Origin: a virus
Strand: one strand, 5' to 3'
Virus record (IMG/VR): IMGVR_UViG_3300030102_005682
Coordinates: 1-58,146 of that record
DNA: 58,146 nt
In this document: positions 7,563-58,146 of the stretch, in pieces
Layout of the letters: each line of letters starts with the position of its first letter
Numbering within the stretch: the stretch's first letter is position 1
Notes under the pieces: model-generated
Database searches by the model: none
Seen by the model: only the letters and a program-made list of their open reading frames with translations
What the model was told of the DNA's origin: nothing
Program-made: the position numbers and the translations under genes

Positions 7563-7803
7563 TGTTACGCATATAGTTTATTAAATTAAAATAAAAAAAT
7601 AAAAAATAAAAAAATGGACCGTTTGTTACGTAACACTATATATTTATTAATATAATATATATATATCAATCGTTTTAGCTGTTACGTGGGTGTTACGTGG
7701 TTATCCCAACGTTACGTAACAGTGGGAATAATTAGGATTGATTTTACTTTAAATCTATGAGAAGTGTATCCTAATGACAAAAACAGACGTAACAGACGTA
7801 ACA
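7563..7803. promoter_or_regulatory. TGTTACG iteron and palindrome cluster beside an AT-rich stretch (candidate pac or origin)
   Basis: TGTTACG or its complement occurs at 7563-7569, 7624-7635 (as the perfect palindrome TGTTACGTAACA), 7680-7686, 7691-7697, 7710-7721 (GTTACGTAAC core, flanked by TCCCA and TGGGA) and twice inside the start of terS (7788-7794, 7797-7803), where it encodes TDVTDV. An A/T-only-like stretch lies at 7576-7670. Repeated binding sites just upstream of terS fit a packaging initiation site recognised by TerS; an iteron origin or an autoregulatory operator is also possible. Confidence 0.65.
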
Positions 7804-8310
7804 ACTAAGTTACAAGAAAGATTTGATCACTTCCCAGGACTAACACCAAAGCAGGCTAAGTTTGCTCAGCTGATAGTTTTGTACGAAGGTAGAAAGACCG
7901 CAACACAAATAGCGATCGAAAGTGGTTTCTCTGAAAAGACTGCAAGACAACAAGCTAGTAACATGCAAAACCCAAAGATGTTTCCTAAAGTTGTTGATGC
8001 CATACAGCATTACAGAGTTCAATTTTATAGAAAGTATGAAACAAGTTATGATAAGCATTTAAAAAGAATGTATGAATTATCTTCAAGAGCAGAAGAGGCA
8101 GGCAATTGGAATGCTGCCGTAGCTGCTGAGAAAAATAGAGGCCAGGTGGCAGGGCTGTATATTGATAAAAAAGAAATAAAATATGGAACTATTGATAGTA
8201 TGAGTATGGAGGAAGTCGATGCAAAAATTGTTGAACTTGAGAAAAGATTATCTGGCGAATCGGCTAAAGTTATAAATGCCAGTGACGAACAAGAAACAGC
8301 TCAAAGGTAG
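7774..8310 (+). CDS. terS: Terminase small subunit
   Basis: The 178-residue protein contains the typical TerS opening LTPKQAKFAQLIV and a helix-turn-helix with TATQIAIESGFSEKTARQQAS (about residues 45-65), followed by a helical oligomerisation region. TerS forms a ring that recognises phage DNA and directs TerL to start packaging. The gene starts within the palindrome cluster and is separated from terL by two nuclease genes and a repeat-rich noncoding region, which is unusual. It overlaps the next gene by 35 bases. Confidence 0.85.
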   Translation: MTKTDVTDVTTKLQERFDHFPGLTPKQAKFAQLIVLYEGRKTATQIAIESGFSEKTARQQASNMQNPKMFPKVVDAIQHYRVQFYRKYETSYDKHLKRMYELSSRAEEAGNWNAAVAAEKNRGQVAGLYIDKKEIKYGTIDSMSMEEVDAKIVELEKRLSGESAKVINASDEQETAQR

Positions 8311-8665
8311 TTGGGCACATCAAGCTGCCTTGTTATGGCTTTTAGATAGGGGGTATTATGTATTCAGTAATGTTTTTGGCTATGGCCCAATTGACGTTGT
8401 TGCTGTTAATGACCTGGGTGATATAGAGTTGTTTGATGTTAAGGTTGCAGGATTTAGAAACAATAAAGACACAAAGGGCTCTAAACAATTAATAAATAGA
8501 ATGTTGACTGAAGAACAGAAAGATATGGGAGTCAAATTATTATATGTTTTTGAGGATGGTACGTGTAGAGTTCAGATGGAGAGAGGCGAATGGTTGAAAA
8601 AACAAAAAGAAAAAAGAGACAAGAAAGGTAGATACATAGGCAGTGGCATCGACACCGGAGAGTAG
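8276..8665 (+). CDS. PD-(D/E)XK-type nuclease-like protein (129 residues)
   Basis: The core pattern GYGPIDVVAVNDLGDIELFDVK supplies an Asp (IDVV) and the D-x-K pair, as in small restriction-fold nucleases and Holliday junction resolvase-like proteins. The C-terminus is very basic (KKQKEKRDKKGR), suiting DNA binding. ATG 8276 overlaps terS by 35 bases; GTG 8282 is an alternative start. A role in DNA processing before packaging, or in host DNA attack, is inference. Confidence 0.65.
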   Translation: MPVTNKKQLKGSWAHQAALLWLLDRGYYVFSNVFGYGPIDVVAVNDLGDIELFDVKVAGFRNNKDTKGSKQLINRMLTEEQKDMGVKLLYVFEDGTCRVQMERGEWLKKQKEKRDKKGRYIGSGIDTGE

Positions 8666-9077
8666 ATTATCAAAAAAAGTAAGAACTAATTTTACTAATG
8701 TACACTTCCTTAAAATAGATTCTTGGTCGACACCAGGTATGCCTGATTTATATGGTCTTTACAAATGGGGTAATAATAACCCAGGTACATTTTGGATGGA
8801 ACTCAAGTGTACAAAAATTAACAAGTTGGGACTGAGTCCACAGCAAGTTGCTATAAATCTCAAGCTATCTGAGTACAACATACCTAATTACATACTTGCC
8901 GAAAGCCTCTCTCGGCGGCAGCTCAAAATATTTCCAGGAAGCGTGGTTCAAGATTGTGCGAAGGATGGTTTTAAGTCCATGAGTCATGTTGCATGCTTCG
9001 ATGGCCCCTACGATTGGACAGCCGTGGAAAAATCCGTGGTCCAAGTCTCCCCACACCATACCGATCTTATAGTATAA
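8643..9077 (+). CDS. VRR-NUC-like PD-(D/E)XK nuclease (144 residues), GTG start
   Basis: Start GTG 8643 overlaps the previous gene by 23 bases. The active-site pattern is PGMPDLYGL, then FWMELKCTK and a downstream Gln (LSPQQ), the PD...ExK...Q arrangement of VRR-NUC and related phage nucleases. The last 17 or so codons run through repeat element A (9028-9077), so the C-terminal tail is encoded by repeat sequence. That suggests the repeat inserted into or fused with the end of the gene. Confidence 0.75.
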   Translation: MASTPESRLSKKVRTNFTNVHFLKIDSWSTPGMPDLYGLYKWGNNNPGTFWMELKCTKINKLGLSPQQVAINLKLSEYNIPNYILAESLSRRQLKIFPGSVVQDCAKDGFKSMSHVACFDGPYDWTAVEKSVVQVSPHHTDLIV

Positions 9078-9118
9078 AAAGTTCCCGCGCTCCCGCTCGC
9101 GAGCAGCTTTTCTTCTCC
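9028..9118 (+). repeat. Dispersed repeat copy A
   Basis: It opens with AAAAATCCG, then GTCTCCCC at 9045-9052, an A/T-rich TATAGTATAA, and a GC-rich tail containing the palindrome GCTCGCGAGC. It begins inside the 3' end of the upstream nuclease gene. Confidence 0.6.
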
Positions 9119-9142
9119 TGAATCACGATTCAACACTACATC

Positions 9143-9228
9143 TTGAAAAATCCGAAGCGACTAACACCGGATCTTGTGTTATGCCTATGATAGAACTGGG
9201 AGCGGCCCAGGCAGGATGCAGCTGGAAA
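9143..9228 (+). repeat. Dispersed repeat copy B (most degenerate)
   Basis: It has TTGAAAAATCCGAAG at 9143-9157, then a diverged middle and a GC-rich tail (GGGAGCGGCCCAGGC). The preceding GAATCACGATTC (9119-9130) resembles the sequence before copy D. Confidence 0.45.
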
Positions 9229-9232
9229 TCCT

Positions 9233-9320
9233 GAAAAAATCCGAAGGTCAAGTCTCCCCATTTTTGGTATGATATATAATAAATTAACCGGATCCCGCTC
9301 GCGCCGGAGTTGGGTGAAAG
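9233..9320 (+). repeat. Dispersed repeat copy C
   Basis: It has GAAAAAATCCGAAG at 9233-9246, GTCTCCCCATTTTTGG, TATGATATATAATA (promoter-like) and then GGATCCCGCTCGCGCCGG. It is closely matched by copy D. Confidence 0.65.
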
Positions 9321-9383
9321 TCCTTTTTTCAAGGGTTTTTGCCGAATCGTGATCCGTGATTCAGGGTAAAAGTGCCGATATAC

Positions 9384-9465
9384 TTGAAAAATCCGAAGCT
9401 GCGGTCTCCCCATTTTTGAGATGGTATATAATATAAGTGGGAGCTCCGGGCCAGGTGAGTTGTTC
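9384..9465 (+). repeat. Dispersed repeat copy D
   Basis: It has TTGAAAAATCCGAAG at 9384-9398, GTCTCCCCATTTTTGAGATG and TATATAATATAAG, then a GC-rich inverted region (GGGAGCTCCGGG). It lies upstream of the 9578 gene and could act as its promoter. Confidence 0.65.
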
Positions 9466-9577
9466 GATTTTCTTCATGAAAAGGCTTGAAAAATAAGGGC
9501 AAATCACTATATATATAGCATGCAGCTGCATCCCTGGTGAAGATTAGCAGGTGATACAGCTCAGTCAGGAGAAAGAT

Positions 9578-9736
9578 ATGAATTTATTAGCAATTGCAGG
9601 TCTCATTTGGGCATTCCTCTTAGCCATTGGGTTCGAGATGAAAGGGGGGACCTTGATAATACTGGTCTTCTTGGTCATCGCTGGACTGGTCGAAGGTGCA
9701 CGTGAGGTAGGGGGTTTCATCAATGTGCTCCTATAA
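9578..9736 (+). CDS. Small two-span membrane protein (52 residues)
   Basis: I start at ATG 9578, with AGGAGAAAG just upstream, rather than the longer frame from 9551. Two hydrophobic segments are visible, LLAIAGLIWAFLLAIGF and GGTLIILVFLVIAGLV, separated by a short polar turn (EMK). No family is recognised. It lies between repeat copies D and E, and its stop codon is part of copy E. The 500 bp before it (9078-9577) contain only repeat copies and no other supportable gene. Confidence 0.6.
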   Translation: MNLLAIAGLIWAFLLAIGFEMKGGTLIILVFLVIAGLVEGAREVGGFINVLL

Positions 9737-9812
9737 AATCCGAAGCACGAGTATCCCCGTTGATATGGGACGTACTAATAAAAAAAGTTCCCGCTCGCGA
9801 GCAGCGCGGGTA
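9735..9812 (+). repeat. Dispersed repeat copy E
   Basis: AAAATCCGAAG at 9735-9745 begins within the stop codon of the 9578 gene. It continues with GTATCCCC, TACTAATA, and TTCCCGCTCGCGAGCAGC, which nearly repeats the tail of copy A. CCCGC and GCGGG can pair around the GCTCGCGAGC palindrome. Confidence 0.6.
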
Positions 9813-9816
9813 AAAA

Positions 9817-9900
9817 TCTTCGGAAAATCCGAAGGTTGAGTATCCTTGATAACATAGGATCTTACCAATAGAAAATCTGGGCGCAGACCAGCTGATGCCA
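9817..9900 (+). repeat. Dispersed repeat copy F
   Basis: CTTCGGA-AAA-TCCGAAG (9818-9834) forms a perfect 7-bp hairpin. It is followed by GTATCC, an ATCCT/AGGAT stem and TACCAATA, matching copy E. A GC-rich tail follows. Between 9737 and 10041 there is no gene, only copies E and F, a long inverted repeat and promoter P3. Confidence 0.55.
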
Positions 9901-9944: not shown

Positions 9945-10005
9945 AAGTTGGGGTAAAAAACAATTAACATTTTTTTTATTTTGTTATTGTAATTTATCCC
10001 AACTT
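9945..10005. promoter_or_regulatory. Long inverted repeat upstream of the 10042 gene
   Basis: AAGTTGGGGTAAA (9945-9957) and TTTATCCCAACTT (9993-10005) pair at 12 of 13 positions (the exception is G-U in RNA), and the inner ACAAT/ATTGT can extend the stem. A TTGACA -35-like hexamer lies just before it (9935-9940). It may be an operator, or a terminator or attenuator with the T-run in its loop. Confidence 0.45.
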
Positions 10006-10041: not shown

Positions 10042-10317
10042 ATGTCAACTGAACTAGAACAAGTCTTACAGATAATTCAAGGTGGAAAAAAAGCAAGTAC
10101 TTCGCACCTTAATTCTGCTTGGCAAAAACAAATGCTAGGTTGGGTTTACTCAACTGCATTAGAGTCTGCCATTATGACTTATCTAACATCAAATGATATG
10201 AGTAAAGAAAATCTTATTAGAACTTTACTTACTATCATTCAGAATAAACCTAGTGATATGCAAAGTTCAATATCTGAACAAGTCCAGTCAGAACTTGAAA
10301 AAGTCCTGAACAACTAG
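10042..10317 (+). CDS. Hypothetical protein (91 residues)
   Basis: Good ribosome binding site (AGAAAGGAGAAAG) after candidate promoter P3. The product (MSTELEQVLQIIQGGKK...) is a soluble helical protein with a coiled-coil-like C-terminus (EQVQSELEKVLNN). No family is recognised. It is the only gene between the repeat array and terL; the 264 bp that follow hold a hairpin, a palindrome and a pyrimidine tract but no gene. Confidence 0.7.
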   Translation: MSTELEQVLQIIQGGKKASTSHLNSAWQKQMLGWVYSTALESAIMTYLTSNDMSKENLIRTLLTIIQNKPSDMQSSISEQVQSELEKVLNN

Positions 10318-10581: not shown

Positions 10582-12048
10582 ATGGGAATCAACATTGAGG
10601 GGCTGACCCCCTTAGAACAAGAAGAGACGTTAAAGAAACTCCTCTTAAGAAAAAAAATTTTAGAATTACAAAAAGATCAGAAAGAAGATTTTTTGACCTT
10701 TGTAAGATCTGTGTGGCCAGAGTTTATTGCTGGACGACATCATAAAATTATTGCAAAAAAATTTGAGGCTATCGCCAACAAGAAAATTAAAAGACTTATT
10801 GTCAACATGCCTCCACGACATACGAAATCTGAATTTGCATCTTACCTCTTTCCAGCGTGGATGATGGGCCGTGAACCACGGCTCAAGATAATTCAAACAT
10901 CACACACGGCAGAATTAGCACAACGCTTTGGTCGTAAAGTCAGAAACTTAATCGACACACAAGATTATCAAAATATCTTTCCTGGCATGGAATTATCGGC
11001 GGACTCCAAAGCAGCGGGTCGTTGGGAAACGAACCAAGGAGGAGAATACTTTTCTGCGGGTGTCGGTGGAGCAATAACAGGTCGTGGTGCTGATCTATTA
11101 ATTATAGACGACCCACATTCCGAACAAGACGCACTTAGTGCAACAGCGTTAGAAAATGCGTGGGAGTGGTATTCATCAGGTCCTCGTCAGCGTTTACAGC
11201 CAGGTGGTGCTATCGTCATTGTCATGACTCGTTGGAATACAAAAGATATCACTGGAGAACTGATCAAGGCCCAAGGACAACCGAAAGCGGATCAATGGGA
11301 AGTAATAGAGTTTCCAGCTATCATGCCGTCAGATAAACCAGTGTGGCCTGAGTATTGGCAAAAAGAAGAATTAGAATCTGTTAAAGCTTCTATCTCCCTT
11401 GCTAAATGGAATGCTCAGTGGCAACAGAACCCTACAGCCGAAGAAGGAGCAATCATCAAACGGGAGTGGTGGCAACCATGGGAAAGTTCCAAGATGCCTG
11501 GCCTGGCACACGTGATACAATCGTATGATACTGCATTTAGCAAAAAAGAAACGGCGGACTATTCCGCTATCACTACATGGGGTATTTTCTGCCCTGATGA
11601 AAAAACACCAAATATAATTTTACTAGATATGAAAAAAGGTAGGTGGGACTTTCCTGAGATGAAAGAGGTCGCCTATGATAGTTACAAGTATTGGGAACCG
11701 GAGTCCGTGGTCATCGAAGCAAAAGCATCGGGCACACCGTTAACGCAAGAATTACGAATGCGTGGTATTCCTGTTATCAACTTTACACCGAGCAAAGGCA
11801 ATGATAAGTTGAGCAGAGTAAACTCAGTAGCCCCTCTATTTCAATCTGGGGTCGTATGGTACCCAGAAGGGGAAGCTTGGGCGGAAGAGTTAATCGAGGA
11901 ATGTGCAGCTTTTCCTTATGGAGAGTATGATGACCTTGTTGACTCAACGACCCAAGCCTTGATGAGATTTAGACAAGGTCGTTGGATAGAGTTGTCTGAT
12001 GATTTTGATGACGAACCAATAGGTAGAAAAAAAAGGGAATATTATTAA
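10582..12048 (+). CDS. terL: Terminase large subunit
   Basis: The packaging motor ATPase and nuclease, 488 residues. The N-terminal ATPase has the Walker A variant MPPRHTKS (76-83), Walker B LLIIDDP (173-178) and coupling motif VMTRWNTKD. The C-terminal RNase H-like nuclease shows D316 (QSYDTAF), E379 (VVIEAKAS) and the D450/D454 cluster (EYDDLVDS). It uses ATP to pump DNA into the prohead through the portal and cuts the concatemer. It begins the long plus-strand structural operon, with the next gene starting on its last base. Confidence 0.96.
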   Translation: MGINIEGLTPLEQEETLKKLLLRKKILELQKDQKEDFLTFVRSVWPEFIAGRHHKIIAKKFEAIANKKIKRLIVNMPPRHTKSEFASYLFPAWMMGREPRLKIIQTSHTAELAQRFGRKVRNLIDTQDYQNIFPGMELSADSKAAGRWETNQGGEYFSAGVGGAITGRGADLLIIDDPHSEQDALSATALENAWEWYSSGPRQRLQPGGAIVIVMTRWNTKDITGELIKAQGQPKADQWEVIEFPAIMPSDKPVWPEYWQKEELESVKASISLAKWNAQWQQNPTAEEGAIIKREWWQPWESSKMPGLAHVIQSYDTAFSKKETADYSAITTWGIFCPDEKTPNIILLDMKKGRWDFPEMKEVAYDSYKYWEPESVVIEAKASGTPLTQELRMRGIPVINFTPSKGNDKLSRVNSVAPLFQSGVVWYPEGEAWAEELIEECAAFPYGEYDDLVDSTTQALMRFRQGRWIELSDDFDDEPIGRKKREYY

Positions 12049-50398: not shown

Positions 50399-50629
50399 TT
50401 ATTTTTTAAGTTTAGATTTGCTTTTTTGAGACTCTAGATGATCTTCTATTGCATCCCATACCTCTACATTAGACCAATGATTTAGAACAGCTTTAGACAC
50501 GTCTTCATGTAAAACTTTTAAAGTTCTAACGCCTATTGGTACAGGTTTTCCTTTGTTTTCATAAAGATGATCAATCTCTTCTCCAGTTAAACTTAAATAA
50601 ACTTCACCGCTTTGATACATTATTCTCAT
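50399..50629 (-). CDS. Small protein coupled to the PP-loop gene (76 residues)
   Basis: I start at the ATG complementary to 50627-50629, which overlaps the upstream stop as ATGA; a TTG at 50650 would overlap more. The product (MRIMYQSGEVYLSLTGEEIDHLY...) is beta then helical, with a Lys-rich tail. Probably works with the PP-loop protein, but no family is recognised. Confidence 0.65.
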   Translation of the reverse strand: MRIMYQSGEVYLSLTGEEIDHLYENKGKPVPIGVRTLKVLHEDVSKAVLNHWSNVEVWDAIEDHLESQKSKSKLKK

Positions 50630-51468
50630 ACTCCACACATCCCTTCGCAATCGTTAATGGCAACGCCACCTAGCTCGTCAAACATTGATATTTGTTTGTC
50701 TTCTGCCTTTTTATCTATATCTATTTCGCTTAAAGGCTTACCCTCTTTGGTAACAAACACGGTATAGCCTTCACGCATACCTTTGAACCCACCATTGATT
50801 TTCTTTTCAAATTCAATGACGTGTTGAAACTCTTCAGGTGAATTATCTTTTAAATATTTCCATTCTTTCCATGTTTTATAAGGACAAAAGGTACAGGCTG
50901 ATCTTGGTGGTTTTGGCATTTCGTGGTCATCAAACCATTTTTTACACATCGCTCTAGTTATGTTTCTTTCAACCAAAGGATATACATTTCTAATCCAAGG
51001 TTTCCTGGCCTCTTTAACACGATACATCTCGTCACGAGATATACCCATGATCATATCAACAACAACGCCTTTCTTAACACGTTGTCCTTTTTTATATCCC
51101 ATGTGAGTTCTAATAAATTTATGAATAGGTTCTATTTTGTAATGACCTGTACACTGCCTGGTAAGAATACCCATGCTATTTTTCTTTGGATCTTTTGTAA
51201 AAAAAGGAGGGGTTCTTGAAGTATGTAAACCCTGCGCAGCTTCTATAGAATCTTGTTCTATATCTCCTGCACTGATTACATGAATAGGATAATTTTTTAT
51301 TTTACTCTTCATCCAATCGAACCAATCATAAACTTCTTTTGGTTCTGCCATGGTGTCAGCAAACACAGCAAAATCAGGCATGGGACCTATCTCACCATAC
51401 TCATACATAAATGCCAAAGTGCTTGATTGCACTCCCGCTCCTAAAGATAATACGTTCAAATCAGCCAT
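50626..51468 (-). CDS. PP-loop ATPase, PAPS reductase-like (280 residues)
   Basis: The PP-loop LSLGAGVQSST (7-17) activates a substrate with ATP, as in PAPS reductases, and the C-terminal half has cysteines in SACTFCPYKTW and further CTGH, suggesting an iron-sulfur or zinc site. Phage members of this family are commonly labelled PAPS reductase or sulfotransferase; some related proteins act in DNA sulfur modification. No dnd or other modification partners are visible. It overlaps the SNF2 helicase by 13 bases. Confidence 0.78.
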   Translation of the reverse strand: MADLNVLSLGAGVQSSTLAFMYEYGEIGPMPDFAVFADTMAEPKEVYDWFDWMKSKIKNYPIHVISAGDIEQDSIEAAQGLHTSRTPPFFTKDPKKNSMGILTRQCTGHYKIEPIHKFIRTHMGYKKGQRVKKGVVVDMIMGISRDEMYRVKEARKPWIRNVYPLVERNITRAMCKKWFDDHEMPKPPRSACTFCPYKTWKEWKYLKDNSPEEFQHVIEFEKKINGGFKGMREGYTVFVTKEGKPLSEIDIDKKAEDKQISMFDELGGVAINDCEGMCGV

Positions 51469-54739: not shown

Positions 54740-56242
54740 TTGAAATACGAGAAATTTAGAGAGATATTTAAAGGTTTAGATAGAGCCTATGGTGTCTATT
54801 ATAAAGGTGAAACAAAGGAGAATGGAAAGCTTTCTGGTAAAGCCTACATTAAAAAAGAGCCTTTGTTTGATCAATACTATGATGCTCATCTAGACGGTAA
54901 GGACCCTGGACTAGGGGTAATTCCTATCATGGACGACTCCAATTGTTTTTGGGGTTGCTGTGATATTGATAAGTATCCTCTAGATTTCAAAGCTATAATA
55001 AAAAAATTAAGAAACAAAAATATTCCTATGATTGTGTGTCGTTCTAAGAGTGGCGGGGCACATCTATTTCTTTTTACTAAACAGCCTGTGCCTGCATCTT
55101 TAATGAGAACTAAGTTATCAGAGATAGCTGCCTCTTTAGGATATGCAGATTGTGAAATATTTCCAAAGCAAGAAGAGATAAAAAAAGATAGAGGAGACAC
55201 AGGTAATTTTTTAAACCTACCTTATCACGGTGGTGATGAGAGTATGAGATATGCCATGGATGATGAGGGTAATTCATTATCTGTGGAAGAGTTTTATCAA
55301 CTATATGATAAATATGTTTTGACTCCAAAAGAACTAAAAGATGTAAAGGTTGTTGAAGAGTCAAGAGAGTTAAAGGATGGTCCACCTTGTTTGGAAACTT
55401 TGATGGCTGAGGGTTTCCCTGAAGGTACAAGAGACAATGCTTTGTATCAATATGCAGTGTATGCAAAGAAAGCTTTTCCTGATCACTGGCAAGATAAGAT
55501 ATCTGAGTTCAATCATAAATATATGGACCCAGCTTTATCTGTTAACCAGGTAAATAAAACAATCAGACAGCATGAAAAGAAAGAGTATGCGTACAAATGT
55601 AAAGATCAACCAATGTGTTCACATTGTAATTCTAATTTATGTCGTCAAAGACAGTTTGGTATTGGTGTAGATTATGAACATAAGTTTGGTGATTTAACGA
55701 AGTATCAATCCGATGAATCTGTTTGGTTTCTAAACGTTGATGGTAGGCGTTTAGAGTTAACCACAGATAGCCTGTTCGAGCAGTCTAAGTTTCGAAAAGC
55801 TTGTATGGATAATTTGAATGTACTCCCAAATCCATTGAGTAATAGAGACTGGACTGCTCGTATTCAGCAGCTACTACAATCAGTCGAAATAATAGAAATG
55901 CCCAAAGAGGTTAGAAAGGAAGGTCGCTTTGAACAACATCTCGATAATTTCATTAATGATCAAGGTAAGGCACTCAATATTGAAGAAATTCTTATTGGAA
56001 AAGCCTGGTCAGAAGACGGAAAAATCTACTTCAAAATGTCTTCACTAGAAGAATATTTAATGAAGAAGAGGTTTACTGAGTTTACTACAACTCAGATGGG
56101 AGCACGTATCAAACAAATAGGTGGTGGCGATACTCGTAAGAGAGTTCGTGGTCGCTTGGTTTACATGTGGTACGTGCCCGACCAAGAGAAAGAAGAGGTA
56201 AACTTAGACTTACCTTCTATGAAGGAGGAGATACCATTTTAA
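54740..56242 (+). CDS. AEP-type primase (PrimPol/TOTE-like), TTG start
   Basis: I choose TTG 54740, which has GGGAG 5-9 bases upstream, over TTG 54728 that lies in the terminator. The catalytic D75-x-D77 (CCDIDKYP) and S104-G-G-A-H108-L motif are typical of archaeo-eukaryotic primases, with EIFPKQ and TGNFLNLPYHGG downstream. The middle has a Cys cluster (YKCKDQPMCSHCNSNLC) that fits a zinc site. The C-terminus ends EEIPF, the same tip as the ssDNA-binding protein. It synthesises primers and likely works with the polymerase and helicase genes beyond it. Confidence 0.85.
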   Translation: MKYEKFREIFKGLDRAYGVYYKGETKENGKLSGKAYIKKEPLFDQYYDAHLDGKDPGLGVIPIMDDSNCFWGCCDIDKYPLDFKAIIKKLRNKNIPMIVCRSKSGGAHLFLFTKQPVPASLMRTKLSEIAASLGYADCEIFPKQEEIKKDRGDTGNFLNLPYHGGDESMRYAMDDEGNSLSVEEFYQLYDKYVLTPKELKDVKVVEESRELKDGPPCLETLMAEGFPEGTRDNALYQYAVYAKKAFPDHWQDKISEFNHKYMDPALSVNQVNKTIRQHEKKEYAYKCKDQPMCSHCNSNLCRQRQFGIGVDYEHKFGDLTKYQSDESVWFLNVDGRRLELTTDSLFEQSKFRKACMDNLNVLPNPLSNRDWTARIQQLLQSVEIIEMPKEVRKEGRFEQHLDNFINDQGKALNIEEILIGKAWSEDGKIYFKMSSLEEYLMKKRFTEFTTTQMGARIKQIGGGDTRKRVRGRLVYMWYVPDQEKEEVNLDLPSMKEEIPF

Positions 56243-57324
56243 AACATTTAGATTTATTTTCAGGTATAGGTGGGTTTAGTCTTGGTTTAGAAGAAGCAGG
56301 ATTAGTTGATACGGTAGCTTTTTGTGATTGGGAGGCTTACTGTCAAGAAGTTTTAAGAAAACATTGGCCAGGCGTGCCAGTGTATGGAGATATAAAGGAG
56401 CTAACACATGAAAGACTCAGAGCAGATGGAATTAATTCCATCGACATCATCACAGGAGGATACCCCTGTCAGCCTTTCTCAGTCGCTGGACGACAAAAAG
56501 CTGAAAAGGATCCGAGACATCTCTGGCCAGAGTATTTTAGGCTTGTCAAAGAACTCAGGCCAACTTGGGTCATTGGAGAAAACGTTAGTGGACACGTTAA
56601 ACTCGGTCTCGACACCGTACTCGAGAACTTGGAGAGTGAAGGTTACTCAACAAGGACGTTTAGTATTTCAGCTTCGAGCATCGGTGCCAACCATCAACGG
56701 GAAAGGATCTGGGTTATTGCCCACGCCAACGACACAGGAGATAGAACATCACGACATCAATTTAACAAAGACAGGGAGAAGATTATCAAAGGACGGGAAG
56801 AGCAGTCACAGTTTGAACTTAGCAGATACGGTGAGGGTTTGGAGAACTCCAGATGCTCACAGTGGCCGTGGAGCTTCGAGCAAGGAAAGAATGAAGATGA
56901 AATTAGAGAAGGGTATGCCAATCAGCCTGAACGATCAGGTGGCACATCCGAACTTGATGTGGCCGACTCCAAGAGCATCAGCAGCGATGGCAGAGGACAT
57001 CAAGAATATACAGAAGCGGGGCACGGAGAGGGGCAGGTTAGAGGAGAGAGTGGCTTTAAGATGGCCGACTCCAACTACAAACGACAGCAAGAACAACGGG
57101 GGAGCATCTCAACTACGAGCAGGCAGGAGAGGTTTTGGAAAGAATCTGAATGCCGTAGTAGCGCAGAGATCTCAAAATGGTGGGAGTCTGAACCCGACGT
57201 GGGTCGAGTGGCTCATGGCTTACCCAAAAGGGTGGACAGACTTAAGTGCTTAGGTAATGCAGTTGTACCTATTATTCCTTATCTGATCGGTAAAAGTATT
57301 CTAGAGACATACGACATTGAGTAA
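56236..57324 (+). CDS. DNA cytosine-5 methyltransferase, probable ATT start
   Basis: Motif I DLFSGIGGFSLG (6-17), motif IV GGYPCQPFS with catalytic C78, motif VI ENV (115-117), motif VIII QRERIW (154-159) and motif X RLKCLGNAVVP are intact, so the enzyme should methylate cytosine C5, protecting phage DNA from restriction. No ATG/GTG/TTG lies near the expected N-terminus; ATT 56236 follows AAGGAGG at ideal distance, giving (M)LKHLDLF. The variable target region (about 160-320) has four A(D/N/H)-type repeats (HANDT, LENSR, VADSK, MADSN). A second gene overlaps it in the +1 frame. Confidence 0.93.
   Translation: MLKHLDLFSGIGGFSLGLEEAGLVDTVAFCDWEAYCQEVLRKHWPGVPVYGDIKELTHERLRADGINSIDIITGGYPCQPFSVAGRQKAEKDPRHLWPEYFRLVKELRPTWVIGENVSGHVKLGLDTVLENLESEGYSTRTFSISASSIGANHQRERIWVIAHANDTGDRTSRHQFNKDREKIIKGREEQSQFELSRYGEGLENSRCSQWPWSFEQGKNEDEIREGYANQPERSGGTSELDVADSKSISSDGRGHQEYTEAGHGEGQVRGESGFKMADSNYKRQQEQRGSISTTSRQERFWKESECRSSAEISKWWESEPDVGRVAHGLPKRVDRLKCLGNAVVPIIPYLIGKSILETYDIE
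56408..57253 (+). CDS. Overlapping +1-frame gene inside the cytosine methyltransferase (281 residues)
   Basis: It has its own ribosome binding site (AAAGGAG at 56394-56400, 7 bases before ATG 56408), wholly inside the methyltransferase gene. The product contains SLEKTLVDTLNS, W-x-VKVTQQGRLVFQL, four repeats LLPTPTTQE, VWRTPDAHS, MWPTPRASA and RWPTPTTND, and the end LNPTWVEWLMAYPKGW. From memory, proteins with this same series occur in many phages, labelled hypothetical or methyltransferase. Each WPTP unit uses the same bases as an ADS/ANT-type repeat of the methyltransferase. About 78% of the methyltransferase codons are shared. Confidence 0.85.
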   Translation: MKDSEQMELIPSTSSQEDTPVSLSQSLDDKKLKRIRDISGQSILGLSKNSGQLGSLEKTLVDTLNSVSTPYSRTWRVKVTQQGRLVFQLRASVPTINGKGSGLLPTPTTQEIEHHDINLTKTGRRLSKDGKSSHSLNLADTVRVWRTPDAHSGRGASSKERMKMKLEKGMPISLNDQVAHPNLMWPTPRASAAMAEDIKNIQKRGTERGRLEERVALRWPTPTTNDSKNNGGASQLRAGRRGFGKNLNAVVAQRSQNGGSLNPTWVEWLMAYPKGWTDLSA

Positions 57325-58146
57325 TACAAACATTATCTTTGGTCCACCAGGGACAGGTAAGACGACTAGGTTATTGCGTATCGTGGAAGAAGAATTGGAA
57401 CGTGGAACACCGCCCGACCGCATAGGATATTTTGCATTTACCCGCAAAGCTTCTCGTGAAGCGATTGATCGAGCCTGCACAAAATTTAATTTACAAAGAA
57501 AAGATTTTTCTAATTTTAGAACTTTACATAGTCTTGCCTATCACTCTTTATCTTTAGATAAAACAAATGTTATGAAAGATGAGCATTACAATGAGTGCTC
57601 TGACTTACTTCAAGTTAAATTAAAAAACGCAGATAAAACTGTAGACAATTACGGTGCCTTTGTAGCTGAGGATGTTTATATGCAACTCATAAATTTAGCT
57701 AAGGTTACAAACGAGCCTTTAAATAAAGTGTTTCATGAGTATGGTCACGTGCCTGGGGGTTGGTTGAAACTGGACTATGTTGATAGGGCTTTAAAAAAAT
57801 ATAAAGAAGAAAGAAACTTATTTGATTATACAGATATGGTTATGGAATATAACAAACAAAAGCCACAGTGTAAGTTAGAAGTATTGATTGTTGATGAGGC
57901 TCAGGACTTATCTTACATACAGTGGGAGATGATAAACAATATGAAAGATCAAGTAGAAAGAGTTTACATAGCTGGAGATGACGATCAAGCCATATTCAAA
58001 TGGTCAGGTGCACAGCCTGACTTTCTAATAAATTTAGAAGGTAAAAGAGAAATACTCAATCAATCATATAGAGTGCCGATAGCAGTGCATCGAGTGGCAA
58101 ATAGTTTAGTGTCAAGGATAGATAATAGGGTGCCAAAAGAATACAT
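57317..58146 (+). CDS. UvrD-like SF1 helicase, N-terminal part (3' truncated by contig end)
   Basis: TTG 57317 overlaps the methyltransferase stop. Walker A is FGPPGTGKTTR (8-18), then FAFTRKAS (motif Ia type) and LIVDEAQDLS (motif II), GDDDQAIFKWSGA, NQSYRVP. The frame is open to the last base. The remaining part of the gene is at positions 2-1249. In the overlap the two copies differ mostly at silent sites; I noted only two amino-acid changes (Gln/Glu, Lys/Asn). Confidence 0.92.
   Translation, partial: MSNTNIIFGPPGTGKTTRLLRIVEEELERGTPPDRIGYFAFTRKASREAIDRACTKFNLQRKDFSNFRTLHSLAYHSLSLDKTNVMKDEHYNECSDLLQVKLKNADKTVDNYGAFVAEDVYMQLINLAKVTNEPLNKVFHEYGHVPGGWLKLDYVDRALKKYKEERNLFDYTDMVMEYNKQKPQCKLEVLIVDEAQDLSYIQWEMINNMKDQVERVYIAGDDDQAIFKWSGAQPDFLINLEGKREILNQSYRVPIAVHRVANSLVSRIDNRVPKEY
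57589..58146. repeat. Right copy of divergent terminal overlap
   Basis: Aligned base for base with 1-558 with 42 substitutions and no indels. It supports a circular or circularly permuted genome assembled from a mixed strain population rather than a fixed terminal repeat. Confidence 0.9.

Follow-up and report, generated by a model that had tools for sequence, protein, structure and literature searches.

Clustered strong promoters for the host RNA polymerase are found in the phages T5 and SPO1, the middle promoters of T4 consist of a MotA box and a −10 box, and the lambda promoter pR′ works with Q antitermination. To our knowledge, few promoter signals have been described for uncultured marine phages. 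We analyzed a virus record of 58,146 bases from a tailed phage (the whole stretch is referred to as the window), in which an array of short cassettes lies between the terminase genes terS and terL. Judged from sequence comparison, the array is real, clade-wide, specific and promoter-like.

As in T5 and SPO1, several putative promoters of one class, apparently for the host polymerase, stand close together, and their conservation extends beyond the −35 and −10 positions; unlike in those phages, they form head-to-tail cassettes, each with AAATCC at about −50 and with a GC-rich block at the putative start of the transcript. Like the T4 middle promoters, the window's own cassettes (type II, see below) seem to have a normal −10 box and a phage-specific one where a good −35 box would be expected; the phage-specific box of the array is, however, a different one, in two parts and further upstream, and no MotA or AsiA relative was named among the proteins scanned. 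With lambda pR′ the array would share a special promoter sequence, a hold close to the start, and a terminator before the late genes in most relatives; unlike pR′, it is multi-copy, and the terminator is ∼900 nt away, beyond other genes. No relative of Q was found, and a literature search found no array of this sort.

Anatomy of the Array

A sequence-only reading of the window had described a six-copy repeat between the terminase genes. The six copies are confirmed, with AAAATCC starting at 9029, 9147, 9236, 9388, 9735, and 9824 (0–7 nt off the positions first given), and all six are on the + strand, in the head-to-tail order that had been claimed. A search with AAAATCCGAAGN5GTMTCC, allowing up to three mismatches, returned exactly these six in the window (shuffles gave a mean of 0.20 and a maximum of 2), and a 51-position sequence model found the same six copies and nothing more in the window up to E = 5. 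Within the 58-kb record the copies are restricted to the interval between the terS-like gene (7774–8310, + strand; a weak PHROG 641 match) and terL (10582–12048, + strand). The window TerL is 63–68% identical to those of phage 023Pt_psg01, Pelagibacter phages HTVC027P and HTVC023P, and phage DSL-LC04.

Each cassette follows one plan, which we derived from an alignment of 43 diverse cassettes and from spacing counts: AAATCC is followed after 9 nt by a GTMTCC-like box, and this box after 17 nt by a TATAAT-like −10 box; an AT-rich stretch and then about 17 nt of GC-rich sequence complete the cassette. Cassette A (9029–9100) has the box AAAATCC...GTCTCCCC at 9029–9052, the −10 hexamer TATAGT at 9068–9073, and a GC block at about 9084–9100; it overlaps the 3′ end of the second of two genes (8276–8665 and 8643–9077) that lie between terS and the first copy. 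The corresponding elements are at 9147–9170, 9186–9191 (TATGAT), and about 9202–9218 in cassette B (9147–9218); at 9236–9259, 9275–9280 (TATAAT), and about 9291–9307 in cassette C (9236–9307); at 9388–9411, 9427–9432 (TATAAT), and about 9443–9459 in cassette D (9388–9459); at 9735–9758, 9774–9779 (ACTAAT), and about 9790–9806, including GCTCGCGAGC, in cassette E (9735–9806); and at 9824–9847, 9863–9868 (a weak TACCAA), and about 9879–9895 in cassette F (9824–9895), all on the + strand. Cassettes B and F are degenerate: the second box is lost in B (AACACCGG at this place) and partly lost in F (GTATCCTT); the motif GT(C/A)TCCCC, proposed for every copy, is thus missing from B and incomplete in F.

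The promoter-like A/T box that had been pointed out is found in all six copies as a −10-like hexamer exactly 15 nt past the 24-nt box, matching TATAAT at 5, 5, 6, 6, 4, and 3 of 6 positions in copies A to F; this constant offset is a regularity that the first reading did not mention. The cassettes fall in two clusters, four before and two after a gene for a 51-aa hydrophobic protein (9581–9736, + strand), whose stop codon overlaps the copy at 9735, as had been described for a small membrane gene between D and E. Between the last copy and terL lies a gene for a 91-aa protein (10042–10317, + strand) without a Pfam or PHROG match. Ahead of this gene, at about 9945–10003, there is a long inverted repeat (GTTGGGGTAA ... 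TTATCCCAAC), strongly conserved in the relatives L021, L011, and L020, which looks like an operator or leader structure; separately, an operator idea based on GTGATTC and GAATCACGATTC was dropped, as these show no enrichment in most relatives.

Elsewhere in the window, positions 57590–58146 repeat positions 1–557 imperfectly (the same helicase gene, with few residues differing), as though a variant copy had served to close a circular or permuted genome. The segment 5001–6000 has a GC skew of 0.41 and a G+C content of 0.47, above its neighbors, and no long plus-strand gene. A C-5 cytosine DNA methylase (PF00145) is encoded at 56200–57321 and a phosphoadenosine phosphosulfate reductase-like protein (PHROG 424) at 50629–51468, and no tRNA was found in the window.

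Distribution in Related Phages

We collected relatives by a TerL search, keeping 80 loci. The array is present in each of the 24 close relatives that we searched (TerL identity of 92% or more), in the same interval and orientation and with 3–7 cassettes per locus; the 120 matches to the sequence model, which had been trained on 43 cassettes from these close loci and the window, all precede terL and share its strand. The model also gave 25 matches in six larger records, of which one measures 57 kb, with a single cluster in each record, and 65 matches in twelve more loci, chosen because earlier scans had shown the motif there. There were no matches in 47 loci with a more distant TerL, including HTVC027P and HTVC023P; these had been fetched by TerL or annotation, and 32 of them have at least 2 kb upstream of the TerL match. 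Since the array is present in all close relatives searched and has no matches in the 47 distant loci, it is, as far as these comparisons reach, a character of this clade.

Three related distant phages (L108, L128, and L130) show one weak model match near a terS homologue (E 0.038), which is not independent since they were fetched by a pattern scan for the same motif; L139, from the same kind of scan, has no model match. A search for arrays in distant relatives by TATAAT-anchored direct repeats returned mostly AT-rich noise, a scan of genome contigs gave 20 single matches in scattered bacteria, taken as chance, and a phage sequence collection gave no DNA match. Another lineage (L085, L090, and L091) offers a possible independent parallel to the array: 1.0–1.6 kb before terL, a promoter-like block of 40 nt (TATAATCCC) occurs twice, and a GC-rich, hairpin-like stretch comes after each copy. 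The GC-rich relative L062 has repeated GCGCGGGCCTTAGATGCAA units between terS and terL (1072–1242 and 2546–2671).

Two Subtypes of Cassettes

A regular-expression search gave 106 instances, of which 10 were dropped as misregistered type I; of the 96 cassettes that remain, 93 have distinct downstream stretches. The cassettes fall into two subtypes by their second box: GTMTCC in type II, to which the window's own cassettes belong, and GACCCC in type I. The distance from AAATCC to the second box is 9 nt in all 30 type II cassettes and in 61 of the 66 of type I (91/96 overall), so that the upstream box keeps to one face of the helix, as expected of an activator-type arrangement; in 18 of the 96, an extra AATCC is found 11 bp upstream of the main AAATCC. 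The best −10 hexamer of type II is 17 nt past the second box in 24 of 30 cassettes, while type I has TATAATATA, with candidate −10 hexamers at 15 or 17 nt in 50 of 66; shuffled spacers gave a flat spacing distribution.

The subtypes differ in how closely they approach a sigma-70 promoter. Type I reads as near-consensus (TTGACC/TCGACC-N17-TATAAT, with up to 11/12 matches): when scored in the sigma-70 register, 22 of 66 cassettes match at least 9 of the 12 consensus bases, compared to 0.12% of window positions, and the TTGACA-like −35 box is good in part of this type. The −35 box is poor in type II, and none of its 30 cassettes reach 9/12. An independent promoter scan scored three cassettes of the relative L022 at 10–11/12; the same kind of scan picked none of the six copies in the window.

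Promoter Interpretation

We consider it likely that the repeats are promoters of a single class, arranged in tandem and used by the host RNA polymerase. The two-hexamer pattern, the constant upstream box, the single orientation, the gaps of at least 76 nt between neighboring cassettes (74 gaps), and the near-consensus sister subtype together make tandem promoters the best explanation; among the options the sequence-only reading had offered, promoter cassettes are well supported by the fixed spacing, the −10 boxes, the one orientation, the 24/24 relatives, and the sigma-70-like subtype. In such promoters, a sigma-70-type holoenzyme would read the −10 box together with the box near −35, and AAATCC, located at about −50 and in some cassettes accompanied by a second AATCC 11 bp upstream, may be contacted by an activator or by the alpha subunit; an upstream activator box is probably part of these promoters. 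The array could feed the small accessory genes between and behind the two clusters, and the GC block, at about +4 to +20, might slow the escape of the polymerase or give the transcripts a structured 5′ end. We infer the use of the host polymerase, as well as the RNA output, the activator, and the timing of the array, from sequence.

Searches for regulators gave the following. No sigma factor was found in the record (the family matched in 10 of 14 control genomes), and a scan of 33 of the 82 window ORFs found no transcription factor or activator. The search for a single-subunit RNA polymerase of the phage gave no match, but its control matched in no genome; none was named among the proteins scanned.

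Short hydrophobic proteins occupy the same place in the island in all 14 loci compared (three sequence families together), the 91-aa family is found in 14 of 14, and a 134-aa family in 10 of 14. In L022 an island gene has its own TTGACA-N17-TATATA promoter (2504–2532, read from the sequence), so that on paper the array is not needed for that gene. In HTVC027P, which does not have the array, gp30, gp33, and gp34 are annotated between its terS and terL on the other strand. The transcriptome report on this phage places these three genes in unusual temporal clusters with early expression (PMC12753301), only an analogy to the genes of the array.

The GC-Rich Block

The block 31–47 nt past the box has a mean G+C of 81%, compared to 38% for the genome, and 89 of 93 distinct blocks are at or above the genome's 99th percentile for G+C. 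In comparisons with L021 and L011, respectively, 134/144 and 130/144 box positions are conserved, as are 80/102 and 67/102 positions of the GC blocks and 56/96 and 45/96 of the sequence after the block. The block is conserved less than the boxes and more than the flanking 3′ sequence: its letters change and, on these alignments, it stays GC-rich. The GC-rich palindromic tail proposed for the copies was overstated: its GC-richness is universal, but a palindrome is present only sometimes. The occurrence of GCTCGCGAGC in copies A and E was correctly read (window positions 9095 and 9793 only).

Promoters of this kind could instead be small-RNA cassettes, each making a short noncoding RNA that is itself the product, with the GC-rich element as its 5′ part. 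Most cassettes have no RBS or reading frame directly downstream, and directional words recur in the blocks (AAGTTCCC 19 times vs. none for its reverse complement; CGCTCGCG 33 vs. 12), as such RNAs might show. Type II blocks also fold modestly better than shuffles (mean z −1.09, 30 cassettes), but type I blocks do not (mean z −0.05, 63 cassettes); folding gave no common fold for the copies, and a hairpin tail as a general feature was rejected, since folding beyond composition is seen in type II only. Blocks in orthologous slots are unrelated and not alignable, there is no plus-strand terminator-like site in the window's array and none common after each cassette in the relatives, and the Rfam search of the window gave no match at the gathering score and nothing convincing. 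We therefore regard small RNAs as an unlikely purpose of the array. We set aside RNA repeats of the CRISPR-repeat or ToxI kind, as the GC blocks within one phage differ from one another.

Returning to tandem host-polymerase promoters, if transcription starts ∼7 nt past the −10 box, the GC block spans about +4 to +20. In the T5 promoter N25, a change of the initial transcribed sequence between +3 and +20 is reported to have lowered the yield of full-length RNA tenfold, a GC-rich variant gave abundant abortive products, and the laboratory variant N25anti has a GC-rich initial transcribed sequence (PMC12464699). The native N25 sequence is AT-rich, in contrast to that of the array, and N25anti resembles the array in being GC-rich from about +3/+4 to +20; unlike this made variant, the GC blocks of the array are natural. 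Because the position of the block matches the GC-rich N25 sequences that trap the polymerase, the cassettes might be natural escape-limited promoters, where strong recognition is followed by a GC-rich start that holds the polymerase in abortive cycling; by this analogy the idea is a speculative one, with a rather small chance of being right. A structured 5′ end of the transcripts is the tamer alternative and a better fit to type II.

The Terminator Before terL

The array lies just upstream of terL in the same orientation, and could in principle provide late-operon promoters for terL and the structural genes. A 12–13 bp hairpin with a T-run stands 250–283 nt before terL in 15 of 18 loci (e.g., 4239–4268 in L022); it is absent from the window, L020, and L021, as the late-operon idea would have it. 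In the 14 hairpins compared, each of the 12 outer pairs varies and always remains a standard pair (pairs counted by hand); as the hairpins had been selected for pairing, the 14/14 is inflated, and it is the range of pair types that carries information. With pairs that vary yet stay paired, the terminator in most relatives implies that array transcripts should end before terL there, and reading through it would need antitermination. Because a strong terminator separates the island from terL in these 15 loci (the window not being one of them), the array is probably not the terL promoter, and we find a role in driving the late operon quite improbable.

Several direct repeats beside the terminase genes, in which an AT-rich box adjoins a GC-rich block, would also suit a DNA site outside any transcription unit, such as TerS binding (pac) sites or a replication origin; this leaves the two-hexamer promoter spacing and the sigma-70 consensus of type I unexplained, and the cumulative GC skew has no bend at the array, so we give it very little credence. 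For the packaging or recombination region offered by the first reading, no favorable evidence turned up. A degenerate mobile repeat spread by recent duplication, another suggestion of the first reading, is hardly credible: some copies have palindromes and the copy number varies from 3 to 7, but the copies keep to one interval, one orientation, and a constant internal spacing, with boxes better conserved than their surroundings.

Implications

As tandem host-polymerase promoters, the cassettes would provide a promoter class that is readable from comparison alone, with 3–7 natural variants per genome in two subtypes, and the array may serve as a natural library for testing the roles of the upstream box and the GC-rich start region. 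If the promoters are escape-limited, the cassettes multiplied by the phage genome copies could occupy host RNA polymerase, the polymerase could be held poised until a phage factor releases it, or the cell could be flooded with abortive oligonucleotides, rather than mainly long transcripts being made. The array would then be a natural equivalent of a device known until now as a laboratory construct, and possibly a new way for a phage to occupy the RNA polymerase of its host.
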